From a virus, in the IMG/VR virus record IMGVR_UViG_3300030389_002849, positions 1 through 24,735 of that record: a stretch of 24,735 bases of DNA; one strand, written 5' to 3'. Shown in pieces: positions 1 to 17,410 of this stretch. The notes beneath the pieces are model-generated. The model was not told the origin of the DNA, ran no database searches, and saw only the letters and a list, made by a program, of their open reading frames with translations. Position 1 is the first letter of the stretch. Each line of letters begins with the position of its first letter. Made by a program: the position numbers and the translations under genes.

Positions 1-2506
1 AGGTGCTGCCGATTGTCAGGTTGGGGACTGCACCTGTAAGTTGTAAAACAATAGCCGTGCCATAGTTTGAGTTTCCTTCGTCACGGTAGGTAATTACATT
101 CCTATTAACACCAGCGTTGAAAGAAATCGCAATATTTGTAGAGCTTGCGGCGTTAAAAGTTACAGGAGTGTCAAAACTTATGCTTGTGCCGCTTACAGTA
201 CCAATAGCATATTTTCCATTTTCAGGAACAGGGTCTTCGTCACGATAAGCAACAATGATCCGGCCAGCACTTGAGTCAAAGGTAATGGCTTGAGAATCGC
301 CATCATTTAAAACAGCGATAGTGGTAGGACTCCCGAAAGAAATAGACGTTCCCGAAACTGTACCGACTATTGCGGTTGGGTTTTGAGGACTTGAACCTCT
401 ATAATGAATTACTACCTTGTCATTTGACGAATCATAAACAATTTCGTTTTGAAAAGTCGTAGCAGAACTGAAAACTGTTGCGGTCCCAACACTCGGTGTA
501 GTCCCACTAACACTTACAACAACTGCCGTGCCGTAGTTTGAGTTACCCGCATCTCTGTAGGACACGACAAACTTGTCGGCTGTAGTATCGTAAGTCACAC
601 TTTGCTGATATACAGTACCAGAGGTTAGATTAGCGGTTCCTCCCACTGACACTGATGTCCCAGATACGGTTAATACTGTTACTTTAGATGTGCTGCCGTT
701 TGTGTTGTACGTGGTTATATGATTAGCGGTATCAGGACTGTATGCTAAAGTACCAAAAAAGCCGCCATCATTAGCGCCATATATTGTTACGGCTGACCCA
801 AATGAGATACTGGTTCCACTGACAGTGCCAACGATAGCCTTACCCTCATCCGGTGCACTATCGTCTTGGTAAACAATCAAGACCTTATCTTGTCCCGTGT
901 CATAGCTGATAGCTATGTACTTAGTGGTAACACTATTAAAGGCAACAGGAGTACCGTAAGTGATGGAGTTGTCAGAACCGACAGTCGCAACCACAGCGTA
1001 GCCGTAATCACTTGTCCCCTCCCAAGCAATAATTGTTTTGCCGCTGTCTGGGTCATAACAACTAGCGGTATATGTTGTGTCAGCCGTTTGAAAGACAGCT
1101 TCAGAACCAAGCGTTCCTGTATAAGCCAAAGGCAACAACGACCCGTTAGTAATCACCCCGCCCTCGACAACCACTTCGCCTGATGCAGAGTTGTTGATAG
1201 CTTGGTTGGTGATGCCTACGAAGTCGGAGGAGGTTGATGATGTTGACGTAAATAGAACGCCCTTACCTGTATTACTTTCAATATATACAATAAGAGAGGC
1301 ACTAGCATTAGCCGCATATGCTACTGTTGCACTATGTGAAGAGCCACTTGTTAAAGATGTTCTTGTTCCTATTGTTGGTGTAGTTCCACTTATGGTAACA
1401 CGACATACTTGAGGTATATCTGCATCAGCACCAGAACTAGATCGAAATACTAGTGTAGTTGCACTCGCTGTTGCATCATATGCAACATGAACGTCACTTA
1501 CTGTTAATCCACTTATATCAGCAGGTGTTCCAAAAGACATAGTAGATGTACTTGTCTCAGTGCCTGCTGCAACTTCTAAATCATTATCACTGTTACTTCT
1601 GTAAGCAACTAAGTATTTGCTTTGGCTTGTATCGTAAGCCAAGCTAATATATTGCGTGTCATCTATTCCTGAAGTTGCTGCGCTTCCAAAACTAAGTGAG
1701 CCGGGACTTCCAGCATTGTAGCTAAAACGAATATAGAACATAGGGCTTGAGCCGGAGTACGTTCGCCACATGCAAAGCATGTTGTAGTTACTACCCCCAT
1801 ACGTACCACCACTAGTGGCAAGAGCTAAATGCCCTGCTGTTGCACTCCCATTTATTTCATATTCGCCGCTGCTAGTAATCGCATTACCAGATGACGCTGC
1901 GAGTAGTTGAATGACGCCTCTATCGCTATAACCGCCTTTACTGTATGCCCAAACGAACCTGTGCGCGTATGTTGGATTATCTGGAGTAGGGCTGATATAC
2001 ATCATATCAGGTTGAGAAGGTGTGCCTTCTGAAACAGGAACGGTTGGTGTGCCAAATGTAATAGTAGTACCTGAAATAGTTCCGGCAACTGCGGTAGGAT
2101 AATTAGAATTACCACCATCAACGTATCCAATTACAACCTGACTATTGCCTGCTGCAATTGCAATATTGTAAGAATTAGCTGTTTCAAATACTACGGGTGT
2201 ACCCCAAGTAATCGTAGCGCCAGAAATAGTGCCAACTACCGCTGTACCGTAATTACTGTTTCCGGCATCGCGGTATGCGGCTACAACTTTACCGCTTGTT
2301 GCGTCATAAGTGACATCAAGATTATTAATCGAATTTGACACAAAAGTAGCGGGAGTTTGCAAACCTCCTTGTGTTTCCGAAATAGCCTTCACAGTACCGT
2401 CACTCTGCAACATCACGGCCTGACCCGTAGCCAGATTACCACTGGCCGTGGCCGTTATGACTTTTGCGCCAGCACCCGCTGGAAGTAGATCGCTTAGATT
2501 GCTCAT
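1..2506 (-). CDS. Tail fibre / receptor-binding protein with two propeller-like repeat sets, partial (C-terminus off the left edge)
   Basis: The frame stays open from an ATG at 2506 to the window edge, giving at least 835 residues. The N-terminus (MSNLSDLLPAGAG, then a GQAVMLQSDGTV-like segment) matches the starts of the next two upstream genes, so all three probably share a virion-attachment domain. Repeats of about 50 residues follow, with a Y-D-x-x-x-x-K-V-V-x-A-Y core, then GNSNYGTA and VSGTSISFGT. Near residue 428 there is a partial copy of the module found at the C-terminus of its paralogs (DFVGITNQAINN). A second set of seven repeats then runs to the edge. It therefore looks like two fibre proteins joined, or one that gained a second propeller. 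The start overlaps the upstream stop as ATGA. The role in receptor binding is inferred from architecture and position. Confidence 0.8.
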   Translation of the reverse strand, partial: MSNLSDLLPAGAGAKVITATASGNLATGQAVMLQSDGTVKAISETQGGLQTPATFVSNSINNLDVTYDATSGKVVAAYRDAGNSNYGTAVVGTISGATITWGTPVVFETANSYNIAIAAGNSQVVIGYVDGGNSNYPTAVAGTISGTTITFGTPTVPVSEGTPSQPDMMYISPTPDNPTYAHRFVWAYSKGGYSDRGVIQLLAASSGNAITSSGEYEINGSATAGHLALATSGGTYGGSNYNMLCMWRTYSGSSPMFYIRFSYNAGSPGSLSFGSAATSGIDDTQYISLAYDTSQSKYLVAYRSNSDNDLEVAAGTETSTSTMSFGTPADISGLTVSDVHVAYDATASATTLVFRSSSGADADIPQVCRVTISGTTPTIGTRTSLTSGSSHSATVAYAANASASLIVYIESNTGKGVLFTSTSSTSSDFVGITNQAINNSASGEVVVEGGVITNGSLLPLAYTGTLGSEAVFQTADTTYTASCYDPDSGKTIIAWEGTSDYGYAVVATVGSDNSITYGTPVAFNSVTTKYIAISYDTGQDKVLIVYQDDSAPDEGKAIVGTVSGTSISFGSAVTIYGANDGGFFGTLAYSPDTANHITTYNTNGSTSKVTVLTVSGTSVSVGGTANLTSGTVYQQSVTYDTTADKFVVSYRDAGNSNYGTAVVVSVSGTTPSVGTATVFSSATTFQNEIVYDSSNDKVVIHYRGSSPQNPTAIVGTVSGTSISFGSPTTIAVLNDGDSQAITFDSSAGRIIVAYRDEDPVPENGKYAIGTVSGTSISFDTPVTFNAASSTNIAISFNAGVNRNVITYRDEGNSNYGTAIVLQLTGAVPNLTIGST

Positions 2507-3993
2507 GTGCTGTAATCCAGATTGATACTTGTGGCTGACATTGCTTTACCAGCTTCTACGCTAGGTGTTGCCGCAGATGTAGCTAACGTGCCGTCCCTTT
2601 GAACATAATAAGTTGATCCAGGTGTCAAACTGCTCAGACCGTTGGAGGCAATCCCGCCCTTCATCGTGACGTTCCCGCTTGCTCCGTTTGATATAGCTTC
2701 GTCTGCTATGCCCAAGAAGTTAGTAGCAGTAAGATTAGTGTTATCAAAACCTACTTGGAACACTACCCCTGTTCCGTAGTTAGAGTTGCCTTGATCTCGA
2801 TAACCAATCGCTACCTTATTTAAGTTAGAGTCAAATGTTGATGTAATACGACTTGTGGTTGCAGATTCAAAAACTACTTCCGTCCCAAAGCTAATACTGG
2901 TTCCGCTGACTGTGCCGACAATCACTGTACCGTAGTAAGAATTGCCACCATCTCTGTACGCAATAATGGTTTTTTCTGCGTTAGAATCGTATGTTGCCGA
3001 TAACCAAGCAGTGTCATTATTTCCGTTGATAAGCACCGCTGAACCATAGGATATAGATGTCCCGCTTACCGTACCAACCTGAGCATATCCGTAACTGTTC
3101 GTGCTTTGTTTGTAAGCTACAACGACTTTATTTGCGCTTGCATCAAAAGCTGCTGTAAGATCGTCGTTACTTTGCACGTTTCCAGCATATATTGTAGCAG
3201 CACTCCCATAAGTTATACCTGTTCCACTGACTGTCCCTACTATTGATTTTAACTGACTGTCATCTCCATCTACATACGCAATCACAACTTTGTTGTTAGA
3301 GGAGTCGAATGTCGCAGCTATTTTTTGAGTATTACCACTGTCAAATATCGCTTTAGTTCCAAACGATATGCTTGTTCCGCTTACCTCGCCTACAATAGCA
3401 TTACCCGCACCTCCTGTTGCTCCTGAGGCATCTCTAAAAATAATAACCACTTTATTATTAGAAGAGTCAAACACGGCCCTAATGTAGTCTGCGGAAGATG
3501 CCCTGAATACAACCGCAGTGCCAAAAGAAATAGAAGTCCCACTAACAGTGCCAACGATTGCTGTCCCGTAGTTTGAGTTGCCGTTATCCGTATAAGCAAT
3601 GACAACTTTGTTGTTAGACGAATCAAATGTGGCCGCTGTGTTGTAGTTTGTGTCCGCAGATTCAAAAACAACAGGTGTGCCAAACGATATTGAATTATCA
3701 CTTGCTACAGTGCCAACTACTGCGGTTCCGTAATTAGAGTTACTTTGATCGACGTATGCAAAAACCACTTTGTTATTAGATGAGTCAAACGTGGCTGATG
3801 TGTAATTAGTGGTTCCAGACTCAAAAACCACTGGCGTCCCTGCTGCTTCGGTTGCCGAAGTACCTGTAACCTGCGTAACCGTGCCGTTAGTGTTCAAGAT
3901 AACAGGCTTACCTTGTGCAACAGCCCCACTCGCAGTAAAACTAAGCTGCTTACTGGCCGCACCTGCTGGTAAAAGATCGCTTAGATTTGTCAT
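2503..3993 (-). CDS. Tail fibre / receptor-binding protein, seven-repeat beta-propeller-like paralog
   Basis: This 496-residue protein has three parts. Residues 1 to about 45 are the attachment-like segment shared with its two neighbours. The middle holds seven repeats of about 48-52 residues with a FDSSNNKVVIAY core, a GNSNYGT turn and a GTVSGTSISFGT strand pair. About 75 C-terminal residues contain FLGIADEAIS, GSTYYVQRDGTL and a final AGKAMSATSI segment. As I recall, this last module is common at the ends of marine phage fibre proteins. Seven similar four-strand units suggest a seven-bladed propeller, which is an inference. Start and stop both overlap neighbours as ATGA, so the three fibre genes are probably translated in a coupled way. 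The strong internal DNA repetition could promote recombination among the paralogs. Confidence 0.82.
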   Translation of the reverse strand: MTNLSDLLPAGAASKQLSFTASGAVAQGKPVILNTNGTVTQVTGTSATEAAGTPVVFESGTTNYTSATFDSSNNKVVFAYVDQSNSNYGTAVVGTVASDNSISFGTPVVFESADTNYNTAATFDSSNNKVVIAYTDNGNSNYGTAIVGTVSGTSISFGTAVVFRASSADYIRAVFDSSNNKVVIIFRDASGATGGAGNAIVGEVSGTSISFGTKAIFDSGNTQKIAATFDSSNNKVVIAYVDGDDSQLKSIVGTVSGTGITYGSAATIYAGNVQSNDDLTAAFDASANKVVVAYKQSTNSYGYAQVGTVSGTSISYGSAVLINGNNDTAWLSATYDSNAEKTIIAYRDGGNSYYGTVIVGTVSGTSISFGTEVVFESATTSRITSTFDSNLNKVAIGYRDQGNSNYGTGVVFQVGFDNTNLTATNFLGIADEAISNGASGNVTMKGGIASNGLSSLTPGSTYYVQRDGTLATSAATPSVEAGKAMSATSINLDYST

Positions 3994-5474
3994 GTCAAAT
4001 CCATCATGTTAATTGTTGTGGCAGTGACAGCCTGTCCTATCTTCACGGCTGGACTTGTGCTGGTAGTAGAGACACTGCCATCAGCCTGAACGTAATAATC
4101 AGAGCCTATAGTCAGCGAGGACTGCTTGCTGTTGATGCTGCCCTTGACGTTGATCTTGCCTGTTGCAGTATCGGATATCGCAGCATCTGCTAGGCCGATG
4201 AAGTCTGCTACACCCGCTCCCGTTGCTGAATTAAAAACAAAACTTATTCCAATGTCCGTACTTCCTTTCCGAACAGCAGCAATATAGACGTTGGCAGTAG
4301 TATCATAGACTAAACTATCTTCAGCAGGGTCTGCTCCATTTGTTTCCGTATAAACTGCTACTGGTGTGGTTCCTGTCAAACTTGTGCCTGATACAGTCAC
4401 GGTTACTGTTTCAACAGCGTAGTCATTAGCAGCCCTGCCAAATATAATTTTAGAAGTTCCGGCATCGGGACTGTATGCAATAGAAACTCTAGTATTTATT
4501 GTAAAAGAGGTTAGATTATCTACTATCGATCCGAATGAGATACTGGTTCCAGACACAGTAGCTACAACAGCACCCACTTTTGCAGCGTTAGTGTCATTAG
4601 CAAACGCAACAACGTGTTTGTTAGCAGTCGCATCGAAAGTGGCATCGTGACCGTTTATACCATTGTCTGAGTTAGCGTTTGCTACTGTCCCGTAACTAAC
4701 TGTCGTTCCGCTTATAGACGCTACTATACCTTGCAGATATTGATTGTTACCGCGATAAAAAATAGCTGTTTTACCAGCAGCAGTGTCATAACTGGCAATG
4801 ACGTTGCTTATGTCATACCCTGAGGTGTTGTCGGTATCAAACCTCGCTGCCGCAGCAGAAAAAGCCACAGATGTACCGCTGACCTGACCTGCTCTGGCGT
4901 ACCCTTTGAAATTGCTATCGTACTTATTGTAAGCAATTAATACTCTGTCTACGCCAGTATCGTAGACGATTGAAGTGCTGTTCACGTTTGCACTTTCAAA
5001 AACAACTTCGCTCCCCATAGACACTGTAGTGCCACTTACTGTTAAGACGCGGCAGGTTCCATAACTGCTGTTACCCTGATCTCTGTACGCAACTATGCAC
5101 TTGCCAGAGTCAGGATCAAAACACATGCTTATTTGTTCGGTATCTGCTGAGTTAAACTCATAAATGCTGCCATAAGTAATGGTTGTTCCTGAAACAACAC
5201 CGACCACCACCTTGCCTTTATCGCCATCATCGTCGTCTATGTAAGCGACAACTAATCGATTATTCGTAGTGTCGTGAACGGTTGCTATACCTCTTGGAGC
5301 ATCTATAGCCCCAGTTTCAAAAGTAGCAACAGCACCTATTGGAGCAACTATGGGACTAACTGTACCATCGCTATTAAGACCCACAGTCTGACCGCTAGAT
5401 ATAGCCCCACTCGCCGTGAAATCAACAATGTTCTGCCCACCACCGCTGGGCAGCAGATCAGAAAGGTTACTCAT
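3990..5474 (-). CDS. Tail fibre / receptor-binding protein, seven-repeat beta-propeller-like paralog
   Basis: This 494-residue protein is the first of three tandem fibre paralogs in the direction of transcription. It opens with MSNLSDLLPSGGG and has seven repeats of roughly 50 residues, more diverged than those of the next gene. The core is Y/F-D-x-x-x-x-K-x-x-V-A-Y followed by VSGTSISFGS-like strands. It ends with the shared C-terminal module (FIGLADAAIS, GSDYYVQADGSV, TATTINMMDLT). Its ATG shares one base with the upstream stop (TAATG). The divergent repeats with conserved ends fit a receptor-binding protein under diversifying selection, but that is inference. It could instead be a virion decoration fibre. 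Confidence 0.82.
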   Translation of the reverse strand: MSNLSDLLPSGGGQNIVDFTASGAISSGQTVGLNSDGTVSPIVAPIGAVATFETGAIDAPRGIATVHDTTNNRLVVAYIDDDDGDKGKVVVGVVSGTTITYGSIYEFNSADTEQISMCFDPDSGKCIVAYRDQGNSSYGTCRVLTVSGTTVSMGSEVVFESANVNSTSIVYDTGVDRVLIAYNKYDSNFKGYARAGQVSGTSVAFSAAAARFDTDNTSGYDISNVIASYDTAAGKTAIFYRGNNQYLQGIVASISGTTVSYGTVANANSDNGINGHDATFDATANKHVVAFANDTNAAKVGAVVATVSGTSISFGSIVDNLTSFTINTRVSIAYSPDAGTSKIIFGRAANDYAVETVTVTVSGTSLTGTTPVAVYTETNGADPAEDSLVYDTTANVYIAAVRKGSTDIGISFVFNSATGAGVADFIGLADAAISDTATGKINVKGSINSKQSSLTIGSDYYVQADGSVSTTSTSPAVKIGQAVTATTINMMDLT

Positions 5475-6607
5475 TACACGCTCCAGCCTATGGTGCCGTT
5501 GATGTAGACCAACGTGATCTCAGCGAAGTTCTTGTCGAAAGTAAGATCACTAGCACTTGATGCAATGTTGCTTGAATTACGACCCACAGTAAAACTCGTA
5601 GTTTCTGCTGCACCCGTACCATCTTTTATGGTCACGTAGTCACCTGCACTGGGACTAGCGGGTAGCGTAATAGTAATCGACCCCGCGCTCGCCACAATAA
5701 ACTCACCGACAACAGCAGTATAGTTGGCACTTTTTAATTGTGGCGCAGAATACTGAACAACAGTATCAAACGCTAGTTTACCTGAGCCATCGGAGGCTTT
5801 AAGAAACTGACCTGTACTACCTACAGCATTTGGTAGTTCTAAAGAGTAGGTTGCTCCTGCGGAATGTGGTGGGCCTTTTAGCGTTACACCGTGGCTGTTG
5901 CTTTCACAGTTGAAGCGAATAGCACCTGCGTTAGTATTGCCGTAAAGCTCAGTAAAGCCTGTGCCGTTTGGAAAGAGCTGTATATTACCGTTGGTGTTTG
6001 TAGATTTGACCGCGTTTGCGTCTATCTGAATATTATCTACATCAAGCTCGTTAGCGACTATCTGACCTGCGGAGCCGTATATGACAGCCTTTGAATTAAC
6101 TACGGTATCAGCAGCCGATCCGTCAACCAGGTTTAGTTCTGATGCGCTAGATGTGACATCTGTAAGCTGAGTGACAGCGACTTGAGGACTCGCTAAAACC
6201 ACCGCTGCACCAGACCCTGCACCGTCTAAATAAACTAGCGCAGTCTTGCCATTAGCTATGGTGACGTTTGCTCCAGACCCCTGACTAATATTTATTGACT
6301 GACTGCCTGTCGTAGCGTTTTCGATAAACATCACGCGAGAAACAGTGTTAGGCGCAATCGTTAAAGTTCTGGTGGTGCTAAGACTTGTGCCAGAAGTTAC
6401 TTTGAAATACAACGCTCTGGCAGGGTCAGCAGCCCCATCTGCAACTGTAGTGGTTACATCCGCATCTGAACTAAACGAGGCTTGTGTGTTAAACCCTAGC
6501 GCATCTGCTATAAGCTCAAGGTTGGTATTTGTGCTATTACCCCACGTACCGTCCTCATCACCAGTGGTTATTTCTTTGAGTCTTAAATTGTTTACATAAG
6601 TAGCCAT
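5474..6607 (-). CDS. Phage tail fibre / tail-associated structural protein
   Basis: This 377-residue protein begins MATYVNNLRLKEITTGDE then GTWGNSTNTNLELI. I recognise this N-terminal segment from fibre-like proteins of marine phages. The middle contains SSASELNLVDGSAADTVV and a beta-rich stretch with LFPNGTG and TYSLELPNAVGSTGQFLK, typical of triple-stranded fibre shafts. The C-terminus has a small domain ending YINGTIGWSV. AGGAG lies 7 bases upstream of the ATG. It sits directly before the three propeller paralogs, so it may be the fibre base to which they attach; that is an inference from gene order. Confidence 0.78.
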   Translation of the reverse strand: MATYVNNLRLKEITTGDEDGTWGNSTNTNLELIADALGFNTQASFSSDADVTTTVADGAADPARALYFKVTSGTSLSTTRTLTIAPNTVSRVMFIENATTGSQSINISQGSGANVTIANGKTALVYLDGAGSGAAVVLASPQVAVTQLTDVTSSASELNLVDGSAADTVVNSKAVIYGSAGQIVANELDVDNIQIDANAVKSTNTNGNIQLFPNGTGFTELYGNTNAGAIRFNCESNSHGVTLKGPPHSAGATYSLELPNAVGSTGQFLKASDGSGKLAFDTVVQYSAPQLKSANYTAVVGEFIVASAGSITITLPASPSAGDYVTIKDGTGAAETTSFTVGRNSSNIASSASDLTFDKNFAEITLVYINGTIGWSV

Positions 6608-6616
6608 CGTTAGCTC

Positions 6617-7417
6617 CTAAGCTGCTTTGTCCACATCCACCCAACTAGGTGTTTGTGTATCTGTTACATTTGTCCAGTTAGGTGTCTGGCTATCGTCTAC
6701 GTTAGTCCAACCACCTCTAGTTATCGTTCCAACTGCTCCTGTTCCTACTACGCCCGTAGGTACAACACTACCAGTATAAGTTACACTTACGGTGCCTACT
6801 GCACCTGTGCCTGCTGTGCCTGTAACTGTCGGTAGTACAGTAGCTGTGCCTGTTCCTACTGCGCCTGTGCCTGCTACACCCGTTGGGACAATAAGCTCTG
6901 CAAAAGACAGAACCACCGTGCCTACTGCGCCCGTGCCTTCTACACCTAGTGGGATTATCGTGTCATCTCTGATAATCCCTACAGCACCTACTGCGCCTGT
7001 GCCTTCTACACCTGTAGGTACGATGTTCTTATTCAGGGCGATACTTACAGTGCCTACAGCACCAGTACCTGCTACGGATATATTCCCGTTAGCCCCCCAA
7101 GCAGCTTCTCCCCAGCCGCCTTTACCCCATACCGCGCCGAGGTAAACAATCGCATCGTAGCCCAGAGTGGTGATGCCTATCGCACCTGTACCTGCTACAC
7201 CCGTTGGAACAACGATTCCAGATCGGTTTATAGTAACCGAACCTACCGCACCTGTACCTGCTACACCTGTCGGAACAATACTATCGTCCAGCAGGATGCT
7301 TACAGTTCCAACCGCACCCGTGCCTGCTGTGGAGATGTTTCCGTTATCTCCCCAAGCAGCATCACCCCAGCCGCCTTTACCCCAAACGGCTCCTAATAGT
7401 ACGGTCTTATCTGCCAC
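6617..7417 (-). CDS. Gly/Val/Thr-rich repeat structural protein
   Basis: The 266-residue product is almost entirely repeats. Nine copies of a GTGAVG/GTGAIG unit occur, usually preceded by IVPTGVA or IVPTGVE. A longer block, GAVWGKGGWG then A-A-W-G-x-N-G-N-I-S, occurs twice, near residues 8 and 95. The C-terminus carries three tandem WTNV-like units (WTNVDDSQTPN, WTNVTDTQTPS, WVDV). The start is GTG at 7417 with AGAGG upstream. Such regular beta-strand repeats suggest a fibrous or adhesive virion component, and the position between head-tail and fibre genes agrees. I do not recognise a named family. The DNA is strongly repetitive, so copy number may vary between relatives or be misassembled. 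Confidence 0.7.
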   Translation of the reverse strand: MADKTVLLGAVWGKGGWGDAAWGDNGNISTAGTGAVGTVSILLDDSIVPTGVAGTGAVGSVTINRSGIVVPTGVAGTGAIGITTLGYDAIVYLGAVWGKGGWGEAAWGANGNISVAGTGAVGTVSIALNKNIVPTGVEGTGAVGAVGIIRDDTIIPLGVEGTGAVGTVVLSFAELIVPTGVAGTGAVGTGTATVLPTVTGTAGTGAVGTVSVTYTGSVVPTGVVGTGAVGTITRGGWTNVDDSQTPNWTNVTDTQTPSWVDVDKAA

Positions 7418-7883: not shown

Positions 7884-8171
7884 TTAAGTCTCCAATAGTT
7901 TTACAAGTTCCGAATGCCCAGCGGCCCGAAATTGATTTGCCAAAGTAGTGCGATCAGATCGAACAGCCTGCTTCATATACTCTATTAACACACCACGTAT
8001 CTGGTTTTTAAAAGCCTCTGCTTGCTCTTGTATGGCTGGATGGCAGTTGCTTCCTACATAAATAATTTTATCTAACGCCTGCTCTGCAAGCTCGTCAGGA
8101 GTAAAGCCTCTTCTGGATATTGTTTTTACTGTAACGTCACCCAACTTTAATGCACCATTAGCACTTATCAT
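7884..8171 (-). CDS. Small conserved phage protein of unknown function
   Basis: The 95-residue product has a short beta-like N-terminus (NGALKLGDVTVKTISRRG) and a helical remainder (TPDELAEQALDKIIYVGSN, then HPAIQEQAEAFKNQIRGVLI). It ends in an RSDRTTLANQFRAAGHSEL segment. I recall similar small proteins beside adaptor genes in marine phage genomes, but know no function for them. The ATG shares one base with the upstream stop (TAATG), which supports the start. A head-tail joining or tail-completion role is possible from context only. Confidence 0.65.
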   Translation of the reverse strand: MISANGALKLGDVTVKTISRRGFTPDELAEQALDKIIYVGSNCHPAIQEQAEAFKNQIRGVLIEYMKQAVRSDRTTLANQFRAAGHSELVKLLET

Positions 8172-8797
8172 TACGATACCTCTCTCCTGGCTTGTCCAGA
8201 ACGATACGTATCTTCACGTAACTTACCGTCACCCAGATTTTTAAGTAACGCCAACGCTTGAATATACTGCTCTGTATACAGCTTAACCATATCGGCTTCG
8301 CCTTTTTGGAAACGTATGGCTTCGACTAAAGCTCCATTTAATAACGCAGAGTCAAAGTTAGTACCTAACCAAGTAGTTCCAGCAGTCACTATAGACTCTG
8401 GGTAATAAGCAAAATGTAACTCCGCAGAAAAACTAGCGTTAGGTGTTGGGCCTACAATAAATGTATCCGAATCAAATATGGCGTAATGCTTAGGTATCCC
8501 TGTTGTTGCTGGGTTAGGATAAGCCTCACGTATAAAGTTAGAGTCTTTGTCCAACAAGTATATGTAATCACTGCCGCTTATAATTGCTAGAGAATATACA
8601 TACAGCATATTAGTCGGCATCGTTAAGTACTTGTTACCAGACGTAAGCGTGCCGGTCTGGTTTTTACGAAGTGCAGGAAGCTGTACAGTGTTGTATATCT
8701 TTTGCTCTGCTTGTTGAGCGAACATAGCGTGCTGATCTGCCGTGAACGTCTGTTCGCAGATGTCTTCTACATTTGCTTTTAGCTCAGTGTAGTTCAC
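8171..8797 (-). CDS. Head-tail adaptor / neck-like protein
   Basis: This 208-residue protein starts at GTG 8797, which overlaps the stop of the small upstream gene by one base (TAGTG). Helical ends (MNYTELKANVEDICEQTF and LYTEQYIQALALLKNLGDGKLR) flank a beta-rich middle (NKYLTMPTNMLYVYSLAI, GIPKHYAIFDSDTFIVGPTP, ELHFAYYPESI). This layout resembles the adaptor proteins that sit under the portal in short-tailed phages such as SU10. The assignment rests on memory of the family and on its neighbourhood. A second protein of similar organisation is encoded at 9300-9992, so the two may form successive neck rings. Confidence 0.6.
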   Translation of the reverse strand: MNYTELKANVEDICEQTFTADQHAMFAQQAEQKIYNTVQLPALRKNQTGTLTSGNKYLTMPTNMLYVYSLAIISGSDYIYLLDKDSNFIREAYPNPATTGIPKHYAIFDSDTFIVGPTPNASFSAELHFAYYPESIVTAGTTWLGTNFDSALLNGALVEAIRFQKGEADMVKLYTEQYIQALALLKNLGDGKLREDTYRSGQARREVS

Positions 8798-9299: not shown

Positions 9300-9992
9300 C
9301 TACCTCACGCCATACATACGCGGCACTAAGCTAATAGATGCCTTTTCTCTATCCTCTTGTGCAGCTAGATCGAACTGTCGTTCATACTCTGTCTGTAGCA
9401 TTGGTATACGCGGTGCCAACTCTGGGTCTTTTTGCGATATGTAATACGCAAGTCCCGCAACCAGGCAAGGTAGAAACCTAAAATTCACATCCGCATCTTC
9501 TACGCCGCTACCCGCATCCTGTATACGCCGCATCCTGTAGTATTTTAAAACATACGTGCTGGACGCATCTGGCACAGGCCACACAGTAACAGAGGGATTA
9601 GCTTGCCCTCTGTCTATGTATATTTGTATAGGGCGACCCTGGGTTAGTTTATTAGGTATACTGGCGTAAGTAGAAACGCTTATACGAGATATACTGAGAT
9701 CAGACTGAGTAGACACATTACCGCTACCAGTGCGTATAACATGCTCAAGCAAATCAATGGTATCCGCCGGTAGGTCATACGACGAAGTTCCTTGTACCAA
9801 GCTGATGGTGCCTTCATCGATAGTCCACATGTTGATACCACGGTTCTGCCACTCAATAGTGAGTAGGTTCATTGACCTACGTGCAGTACGCAGGTCATAA
9901 CCCGAACGCATCTCACGGCCAGCACGTTCCCACGCTTCTTCAGCGATTTCCGTGAAGTCCATATTGAATGTGGCAGTTCCCGAGGTAGCCAT
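9300..9992 (-). CDS. Head-tail adaptor / neck-like protein
   Basis: The 230-residue protein opens with a helical region (FTEIAEEAWERAGREMRSGY, then DLRTARRSMNLLTIEWQNRG). A beta-rich core follows (GTSSYDLPADTIDLLEHVIR, GRPIQIYIDRGQANPSVTVW, YVLKYYRMRRIQDAG). It ends in a helical C-terminus (FLPCLVAGLAYYISQKDPEL). This pattern matches what I remember of SU10-like adaptor proteins in marine podovirus-like genomes. It lies between the small basic gene cluster and the zinc-ribbon gene. The upstream ribosome-binding site is weak (AAGAAG-like). A neck role is likely but not proven. Confidence 0.65.
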   Translation of the reverse strand: MATSGTATFNMDFTEIAEEAWERAGREMRSGYDLRTARRSMNLLTIEWQNRGINMWTIDEGTISLVQGTSSYDLPADTIDLLEHVIRTGSGNVSTQSDLSISRISVSTYASIPNKLTQGRPIQIYIDRGQANPSVTVWPVPDASSTYVLKYYRMRRIQDAGSGVEDADVNFRFLPCLVAGLAYYISQKDPELAPRIPMLQTEYERQFDLAAQEDREKASISLVPRMYGVR

Positions 9993-13745: not shown

Positions 13746-14657
13746 CTAGCTTGCGCCAGGTGATCCGAAGATACCCAGCGGATCAGATACACCAAAGCTG
13801 TAACGCTCACGGGCCTTGTACCGGCTGTTGCCAGTATCAAAATCGGCATCCATAGAGGTTTGCATTGGAGTTCGCACAAAGTGCTTCAGACCATTAGGAA
13901 TATCAGTCATCAAGAACCACGCGTTAGTGTCAGTCAGATAATGGTTAACAGTGTAACCTTCTGGAATTGACCCCATGCTTCGTAGCGCATTGATGTCGTT
14001 ATCGGCGGTGTTCACACGAAGCTCAGTCTCAAGCAAACGAGTTGCCACAAACTGAAGATCGGGCGGAACAACCAGCTTAGTGGGCCTAGATGCGATAAGC
14101 AGGCCGCGCTCGTCAGTCCATCCAGCAATCTGGATAACAGATGCTTCCAAGGAAGTCTCGTTCAGATCAGCACCAGTAGCAGGCTCGTTAGAGTTAGTGC
14201 CACCAGACACCAGAGGGTGTGCAGTAGAACAAAGCTCTACACCATCGCCATAAGTTACTGCGGGATCGAACGCACTGTTCAAAATTGCAGCAGCTTTAAC
14301 TTGCTTGGTGTAAGCCATAGCTCGTGCCAATGCTTTGGTATAACGTGCAGACAATGAATCATACAGGTTGTCTTCAATAGCCTCTTCGGTTATTGAGAAT
14401 CCCATAGAAATTGTCTCGTGGTTATACCTAGCAGTGAACGCTTCTTGGGCGTTGTCATACGAAATGGCCGCACCTTCGTTTTTAACAGGTGCTGCACCAA
14501 AGCCAGACAGCTTGGTTTCTTCTTCAAAAGAACGCTCTGAAGTTTCAGTTTCAAAAATTTCAGCGTGCTCTTCACCGTATTTCTCATACTCCATGCCAAA
14601 TAGGGCATTTAGACCCGGTAGGAGTTCTTTGAGTAGTTGCGCTCTTGAAATAGCCAT
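13746..14657 (-). CDS. Major capsid protein
   Basis: This 303-residue protein begins MAISRAQLLKELLPGLNALF. It has an E-rich N-arm (YEKYGEEHAEIFETETSERS), an AYTKQVKAAAILNSAFDPAV helix and a VVPPDLQFVATRLLET segment. Late beta regions read AWFLMTDIPNGLKHFVR and YKARERYSFGVSDPLGIFGS. The length, helix/strand pattern and VPPxLxxxA...LL motif match HK97-fold major capsid proteins of environmental phages. It follows scaffold and decoration genes and precedes a terminator, the usual capsid position. AAGGAG lies 9 bases before the ATG. It would form hexamers and pentamers of the head shell. Confidence 0.85.
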   Translation of the reverse strand: MAISRAQLLKELLPGLNALFGMEYEKYGEEHAEIFETETSERSFEEETKLSGFGAAPVKNEGAAISYDNAQEAFTARYNHETISMGFSITEEAIEDNLYDSLSARYTKALARAMAYTKQVKAAAILNSAFDPAVTYGDGVELCSTAHPLVSGGTNSNEPATGADLNETSLEASVIQIAGWTDERGLLIASRPTKLVVPPDLQFVATRLLETELRVNTADNDINALRSMGSIPEGYTVNHYLTDTNAWFLMTDIPNGLKHFVRTPMQTSMDADFDTGNSRYKARERYSFGVSDPLGIFGSPGAS

Positions 14658-16803: not shown

Positions 16804-17220
16804 TCATGCGCGAGTAAGTTTACTCGTGTCTTCAATCACGGCTTCGATAGAGTCATCGTTCATCAAACGATACTCTTCTTTGCCGACCTTAAAACGCGTG
16901 CCAGTGTTAGCACGGAACATCACATAGTCTCCCTCTTTACACCAAGGGCCATCTGGAAACCGCTCTTTATCCTTATAGGCTTGATCGCCCATATCGGTTA
17001 CAACCCCTACCATAGATAAAATGTACTCTTCTCTTATAGTAGAAGCAGCTTTAGCTATGCCGCCTTCAAACGTATCTTCTACAGAAGGCAACAACACCAG
17101 CACCCTATAGCCCACGGGTTTAGGGACATGTTTATCCAGTACCACTTCAGAGGCTTGTTGATCCTCTATCTTCCGCTTACGCTTTGCTTCGAGCGCAGTC
17201 ATTTCAATCGCTTCAGTCAT
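16804..17220 (-). CDS. GroES-like co-chaperonin
   Basis: I choose the ATG at 17220 (138 residues, MTEAIEMTALEAKRKRKIED). It has GGAAG 6 bases upstream and overlaps the upstream stop in ATGACTGA; a farther in-frame start at 17247 lacks these. The fold region is PKPVGYRVLVLLPSVEDTFE, a GGI-containing loop at about residues 53-55, MVGVVTDMGDQAYKDKERFP, GPWCKEGDYVMFRANTG and RLMNDDSIEAVIED. This matches Cpn10: an N-terminal beta strand, the GGI mobile loop that docks on GroEL, a GxG(D) turn and the Y-V-x-F strand. It probably partners with host GroEL in capsid folding, as T4 gp31 does. Confidence 0.78.
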   Translation of the reverse strand: MTEAIEMTALEAKRKRKIEDQQASEVVLDKHVPKPVGYRVLVLLPSVEDTFEGGIAKAASTIREEYILSMVGVVTDMGDQAYKDKERFPDGPWCKEGDYVMFRANTGTRFKVGKEEYRLMNDDSIEAVIEDTSKLTRA

Positions 17221-17410
17221 CTGAGTCTTCCATATAGTTACGCGCAAGGTCTTCGATCTCTCGGCGTGCGGCAGCTAGACCTCGTATCACTCCGCACGAC
17301 TCCTTGTATTCGGGAAAGTCTTTAGCTCCCCCGCTTGAAAGGAATTCTTCTTGTTGCGCTTGCATCTCTGCAAGTTTGTTGTTCAACACGTCAAAGACGG
17401 TTTGTGCCAT
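17213..17410 (-). CDS. Small acidic helical phage protein
   Basis: The 65-residue product is mostly helical: VFDVLNNKLAEMQAQQEEFL, then GGAKDFPEYKESCGVIRGLA and REIEDLARNYMEDSDD. I recall similar proteins, with the KDFxEYKExCGVIRGL block, between the portal and assembly genes of environmental phages. It lies 3 bases after the portal stop and overlaps the co-chaperonin start. A head-assembly accessory role is possible. No further motif is visible. Confidence 0.68.
   Translation of the reverse strand: MAQTVFDVLNNKLAEMQAQQEEFLSSGGAKDFPEYKESCGVIRGLAAARREIEDLARNYMEDSDD

Follow-up and report, generated by a model that had tools for sequence, protein, structure and literature searches.

At the left end of the window (the whole 24,735-base stretch that was analyzed, IMG/VR record IMGVR_UViG_3300030389_002849 from an uncultured virus), three array genes follow a tail-fiber gene, and each encodes a small domain, hereafter the frame, that is predicted to hold one or two beta-propellers in its loops. 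The explanation that we consider best, at a probability of about 0.7, is a conserved three-frame fiber tip displaying exchangeable, probably glycan-binding propellers. The trimeric assembly, virion location, and ligand of the array proteins are elements that we infer. Among related phages, propellers appear to have been exchanged, gained, or lost.

Gene organization and genomic context

The fiber gene P0004 is followed on the minus strand by the coupled genes P0003, P0002, and P0001. The junctions P0003/P0002 and P0002/P0001 were both ATGA, in agreement with the three tandem paralogs and ATGA starts reported in the sequence-only reading, and the P0004-P0003 junction was TAATG. Insertion sites in the frame were lettered a to f, lying between strands 1-2, 2-3, 3-4, 4-5, 6-7, and 7-8, respectively, by comparing profile positions with the P0002 model. 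The features, with predicted domain borders, are as follows (L with a number designates a locus gathered by similarity to the array family).

5474..6607, minus strand: P0004, tail-fiber gene immediately preceding the array, 377 aa (phrog_31104, E 3.6e-52)
3990..5474, minus strand: P0003, array gene 1 (494 aa) with a single site-c propeller
5349..5474, minus strand: P0003 frame, N part, residues 1-42; intact propeller-free counterpart in L196:4421-4783
4215..5348, minus strand: P0003 propeller, site c; at most 42% identity to any propeller in the propeller comparison
3993..4214, minus strand: P0003 frame, C part; blastn matches start at 4202-4211 in 8/10 relatives
2503..3993, minus strand: P0002, array gene 2 (496 aa) with a single site-c propeller; AlphaFold2 pLDDT 90.4
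3868..3993, minus strand: P0002 frame, N part; joined to the C part, 24.7 bits to PF09956 (cut-off 24)
2731..3867, minus strand: P0002 predicted seven-bladed propeller, site c; 7 repeats; BP39L lectin Z 32.1, PLL lectins Z about 30
2506..2730, minus strand: P0002 frame, C part
2..2506, minus strand: P0001, array gene 3, 835 aa, two propellers, truncated at the contig edge; complete relative L086:2711-5245
2381..2506, minus strand: P0001 frame, N part; blastn matches stop at 2377-2391 in 7/10 relatives
1235..2380, minus strand: P0001 propeller, site c; at most 39% identity to any propeller in the same comparison
1145..1234, minus strand: P0001 frame, first half of the C part; blastn matches start at 1224-1240 in 6/10 relatives
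32..1144, minus strand: P0001 second propeller, site e; 7 repeats; 73% identity to the L086 site-e propeller
2..31, minus strand: P0001 frame, opening stretch of the C part's second half, truncated at the contig edge

P0004 also matched phrog_972, tail fiber proximal subunit (E 5.1e-9), and its residues 2-148 shared 51.7% identity with a tail fiber domain-containing protein of Roseobacter phage CRP-902. Upstream of P0004, a 266-aa protein (window 6617-7417) showed internal repeats, seen as multiple off-diagonal blastn matches; family searches gave no match for it.

The nearest relatives of the terminase and portal were found in Pelagibacter phages HTVC023P/HTVC027P and in a small number of similar phages (about 40-58% identity). 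Two distinct proteins matched PF24175, the SU10 adaptor family (window 8171-8797, E 4.1e-20; 9300-9992, E 6.2e-14), and this likeness suggests a phage with a short tail. The portal gene was adjoined by a gene for a GroES-like co-chaperonin (window 16804-17247; phrog_3188, E 3.1e-13). A genome scan for the array family returned seven loci, every one on a MAG contig, and a phage-collection search with P0002 retrieved only Lentibacter phage ICBM2 (two records) and Marine virus AG-345-O18, weakly. In addition, a 2350-aa protein containing frame and propeller (L115:6108-13157) was located on a Euryarchaeota MAG contig.

Propeller fold of the array proteins

Seven repeats per set, as expected for a seven-bladed propeller, had been read from the sequence beforehand, and structure prediction had been proposed for counting the blades. 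A repeat HMM found 7 repeats in P0002; in P0003 it detected 6, where the spacing predicts 7. In P0001, 4 repeats were detected in the first set, though its span (residues 43-424) is seven repeats long, and 7 were detected in the second set (residues 467-825), where seven further repeats had been anticipated. The AlphaFold2 model of P0002 (mean pLDDT 90.4, pTM 0.85) is a propeller of seven blades, and its residues 47-418 superposed on seven-bladed propellers in a structure comparison. With repeats, confident model, and superposition in agreement, the middle of P0002 is predicted to be a seven-bladed beta-propeller, as the earlier reading held.

Among the top VIA rows were the lectins BP39L, PLL/PHL, and CV39L (Z about 29-32 over approximately 310-323 residues), with BP39L reaching Z 32.1 at 3.0 Å over 323 residues of the P0002 model. 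These lectins have seven blades, as has P0002, but unlike the array propellers they are not inserted in a phage frame domain. Searching the PDB by phmmer with P0002 and P0003 as queries gave no PLL chain and no sequence match to propeller lectins. Likewise, no informative match was obtained for intact P0001-P0003 in Pfam and PHROGs, or for P0002 and P0003 in the PDB. YncE, WD40, and integrin propellers scored about as well as lectins against the propeller models; since YncE scores the same as the BP39L lectin, the fold alone names no ligand.

The Foldseek rows also included sialidases and L-rhamnose-alpha-1,4-D-glucuronate lyase, and an endosialidase tailspike is carried by phage K1F, according to an excerpt of PMC12632334. 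The propellers might accordingly be read as enzymes (sialidase- or lyase-like depolymerases) instead of lectins, but lectin, WD40, and YncE propellers scored at least as well, and the PDB and Pfam gave no sequence match supporting an enzyme; we judge this quite unlikely.

Frame domain

The conserved N- and C-terminal modules are, judged from sequence, two parts of one small beta-strand domain of about 115 residues that is split by the propeller. When the propeller was removed from P0002, the joined frame matched PF09956 (Phage_cement_2, formerly DUF2190) at E 3.1e-5 and 24.7 bits over residues 16-116, a marginal result that exceeds the Pfam cut-off of 24 by only 0.7 bits; whole P0002 gave no PF09956 match in Pfam. 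Nine of 12 joined frames matched this family at E 0.1 or better, and only the best of the 12 is known to lie above the threshold. None of the eight natural empty frames tested passed the threshold (best 23.3 bits), and three of the eight were without a match at E 0.1 or better. A joined-frame profile gave weak matches only in the PDB, the best to a designed protein (E 0.089); another was to a neck fiber protein (E 0.83). The frame thus appears remotely akin to phage cement/decoration proteins; unlike PF09956, it is interrupted by large insertions and situated next to or on a fiber, and its natural empty form scores below the cut-off.

Twelve small propeller-free frame proteins (115-157 aa) were found within or beside arrays, this number being the 14 rows classed as empty minus two longer proteins (L116, L212). 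These natural frame-only proteins argue more strongly than the marginal PF09956 score for the frame being a unit. One of them, L196:4421-4783, resembles the P0003 frame and occupies the gene 1 position in an array of three genes that follows a 377-aa ORF, as in the window.

The double gene P0001

The leftmost gene had been described as having an internal copy of part of the C-terminal module near residue 428. Such a segment was indeed recovered, as a profile match at residues 428-474 (E 1e-5); its boundaries are set here at 425-454. The copy is, as the sequence reads, the first half of the sole C module, interrupted by a propeller in a frame loop. The module's other half begins with 'NLTIGST' at the contig edge (within window 31-2), and its continuation in L086 is 'NLTIGSTYYVQDDGTLSTTSSSVTAGKAIANTTLLLKG' (translated by eye). 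L086:2711-5245 is a complete double with 54.7% identity across P0001 residues 1-835. In complete c+e doubles the C module was interrupted, not duplicated, giving the plan N-7R-(half C)-7R-(half C). Such independent complete doubles indicate that the double set is real, with a small remaining chance of misassembly.

A C-module fragment between two repeat sets had led the sequence-only reading to gene fusion or internal duplication. Fusion of two paralogs predicts N-7R-C-N-7R-C, but there is no second N module, and in complete doubles the C module resumes past the second propeller. Further, the two P0001 propellers share 30% identity with each other, whereas the second and the L086 propeller at the same site, e, share 73%. 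Fusion or internal duplication is therefore extremely improbable, and an additional propeller at site e is the reading retained for P0001.

The model of the L086 protein contained two propellers (46-405 and 444-804), and the region equivalent to the P0001 site-c propeller was modeled as a propeller. The frame was poorly predicted (block pLDDT about 38-68) and the double model as a whole had a pTM of 0.51, so this model gives no proof of a split-frame fold.

Insertion sites among relatives

To classify insertions, 415 complete ORFs were surveyed; each scored 130 or more and covered the frame profile from position 25 or lower through position 108 or higher, and identical ORFs were counted once. 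A cut-off of 90 was used for array counts. Sixty shuffled family proteins scored 65 or less, and 657 non-family ORFs scored 52 or less, except for an empty frame in L103 (237). The dynamic-programming alignment sometimes split one propeller into two; neighboring fragments were joined, and some of the a/b/c labels are still approximate. The loci were gathered by similarity to the array family, and class frequencies are thus not population frequencies.

The main form, one propeller at site c, accounted for 300 of the 415 proteins. Two-propeller forms were c+e (24, plus some split rows) and c+d (23), and propellers at sites a and b were rarer. A second propeller family occupied site f (10 proteins) or site e (5), and an SBBP propeller (PF06739, E 6.8e-32) was found at site c in L264.

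An ORF of approximately 85-94 aa accompanied arrays (L015:7696-7959, L144:5771-6034, L103:7223-7486, L086:5252-5509, L224:6240-6524), located between array genes 1 and 2 in some loci and past the array in others. It is possibly an assembly helper.

Exchange of propellers

In blastn comparisons of the window with ten relatives (best 14 matches per locus), matches stopped at the frame/propeller borders. Among the matches listed, they started at 4202-4211 in 8/10 relatives (border 4214), ended at 2377-2391 in 7/10 (border 2380/2381), and started at 1224-1240 in 6/10 (border 1234); in the remaining loci the sequence was absent there, or no match was among those listed.

For 163 protein pairs with frames 80-90% identical, the median propeller identity was 43%, compared with 44% in 300 random pairs. 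The nearest frame relative stood at the same gene position in 228/230 cases (101/102, 100/101, and 27/27 by clade), whereas the nearest propeller relative did so in 98/225 (41/98, 41/101, and 16/26), chance being about one in three. In this test, five near-duplicate arrays were dropped and the two clade D arrays have no figures; clade C propellers were less mixed (16/26 at the same position).

Among related proteins, propellers vary more than frames, as would be expected if propellers merely evolved faster and no cassettes were exchanged. Such saturation is not the sole cause, because in 124 of the 188 propeller pairs with at least 75% identity the frames were below 70%. The same held for 29 of the 65 pairs with at least 88% identity, and propeller pairs at 93-95% DNA identity crossed both loops and gene positions. 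For example, the L017 site-d and L149 site-c propellers were 92% identical in protein and 93.4% in DNA over 1092 bp with unlike flanks, and the L060 gene 1 propeller and the site-c propeller of L076 gene 3 were 94.7% identical in DNA over 1088 columns. Faster evolution by itself is thus very unlikely, and exchange of whole propellers is preferred.

Array composition and link to the tail fiber

Seventy-three distinct arrays had more than 1.2 kb of flanking sequence on both sides, and 53 of them comprised three frames. Three frames are not a strict rule, as the other 20 arrays differed (one frame in 14, two in 5, and four in 1). A repeat-based count had given arrays of three or one but never two, and this statement was dropped when the frame-based count yielded the five two-frame arrays. 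Of the one-frame arrays, 11/14 had an N-terminal extension, and single-frame proteins were often fused to fiber-like sequence. Three-frame arrays carried two, three, four, five, or six propellers in 3, 26, 16, 7, and 1 cases, respectively. A trimeric tip, in which three genes supply three chains or one gene a homotrimer, would account for these frame numbers. The earlier suggestion of a mixed fiber is reasonable as a hetero-oligomeric reading and stays at that level.

The array was linked to tail fibers both in the genome and covalently. P0004-like ORFs lay within 20 bp of the array start in 22/51 cases. In L009, L010, and L079, frame, propeller, and a P0004-like stretch (71, 63, and 83% identity) were in one ORF, and in L041 and L044, frame and propeller shared an ORF with phrog_38058 tail fiber sequence. 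The receptor-binding context proposed earlier is thus supported by the upstream fiber gene and the fiber fusions of relatives.

The array proteins could instead decorate the capsid as cement, with the propellers on the head and the fiber neighbor incidental. The frame has a likeness to PF09956 and a weak one to other cement/minor capsid families, head-decoration PHROGs were matched at E 0.035 and worse, and decoration proteins can act in target-cell binding (an excerpt of PMC7602432). Nevertheless, the array stands behind a fiber gene, approximately 8 kb from the capsid gene (13746-14657), and relatives carry the frame on a fiber shaft within one ORF. Genome context and fusions favor the tail over the capsid, and a capsid location is rather unlikely.

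Proposed function and significance

The fiber neighbor and the fiber fusions, together with the fold, point to an adhesion role for the propellers, which are probably glycan-binding. The receptor-binding protein Gp45 of Staphylococcus phage phi11 likewise pairs a propeller with a receptor-binding role, and its receptor is a glycan; according to an excerpt of PMC4901313, it is a five-bladed homotrimer of one protein, so the seven-bladed array propellers fall outside the Gp45 type. Known propeller adhesins such as Gp45 may function similarly, but their architecture differs. No paper on a propeller in a cement-type fold or in this frame was found among the open-licence papers searched.

In the proposed mechanism, each array gene supplies a frame with a predicted seven-bladed propeller in the strand 3-4 loop (site c), to which P0001 adds a second in the strand 6-7 loop (site e). 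The frames would come together at the tip of the P0004 fiber, most likely forming a heterotrimer, and the propellers would bind host surface glycans. The conserved frame flanking the c propeller on both sides could serve as homology arms for same-site exchange, and recombination of whole propellers would alter host attachment. A stronger version is possible but held only tentatively: the three position-fixed frames may form an obligate heterotrimeric socket with loops as ports, in which whole propellers assorted by recombination between ports and between gene positions yield a combinatorial receptor-binding repertoire without a diversity-generating retroelement.

Variable genome regions of marine phages have been described as metaviromic islands, for which tail fiber and host recognition are often mentioned in an excerpt of PMC3909814. 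In contrast to the islands as described there, the variable unit here would be a single propeller cassette in a conserved frame. Propeller-bearing phage adhesins and mosaic fiber genes were already known; in this family, natural sequences reveal the exchange unit together with its borders, its empty state, and several alternative sockets. The frame points to natural insertion-tolerant loops in one small domain. Swap, gain, and loss of propellers probably alter which cells the phage attaches to, and how phages change attachment specificity without breaking fiber assembly becomes testable.
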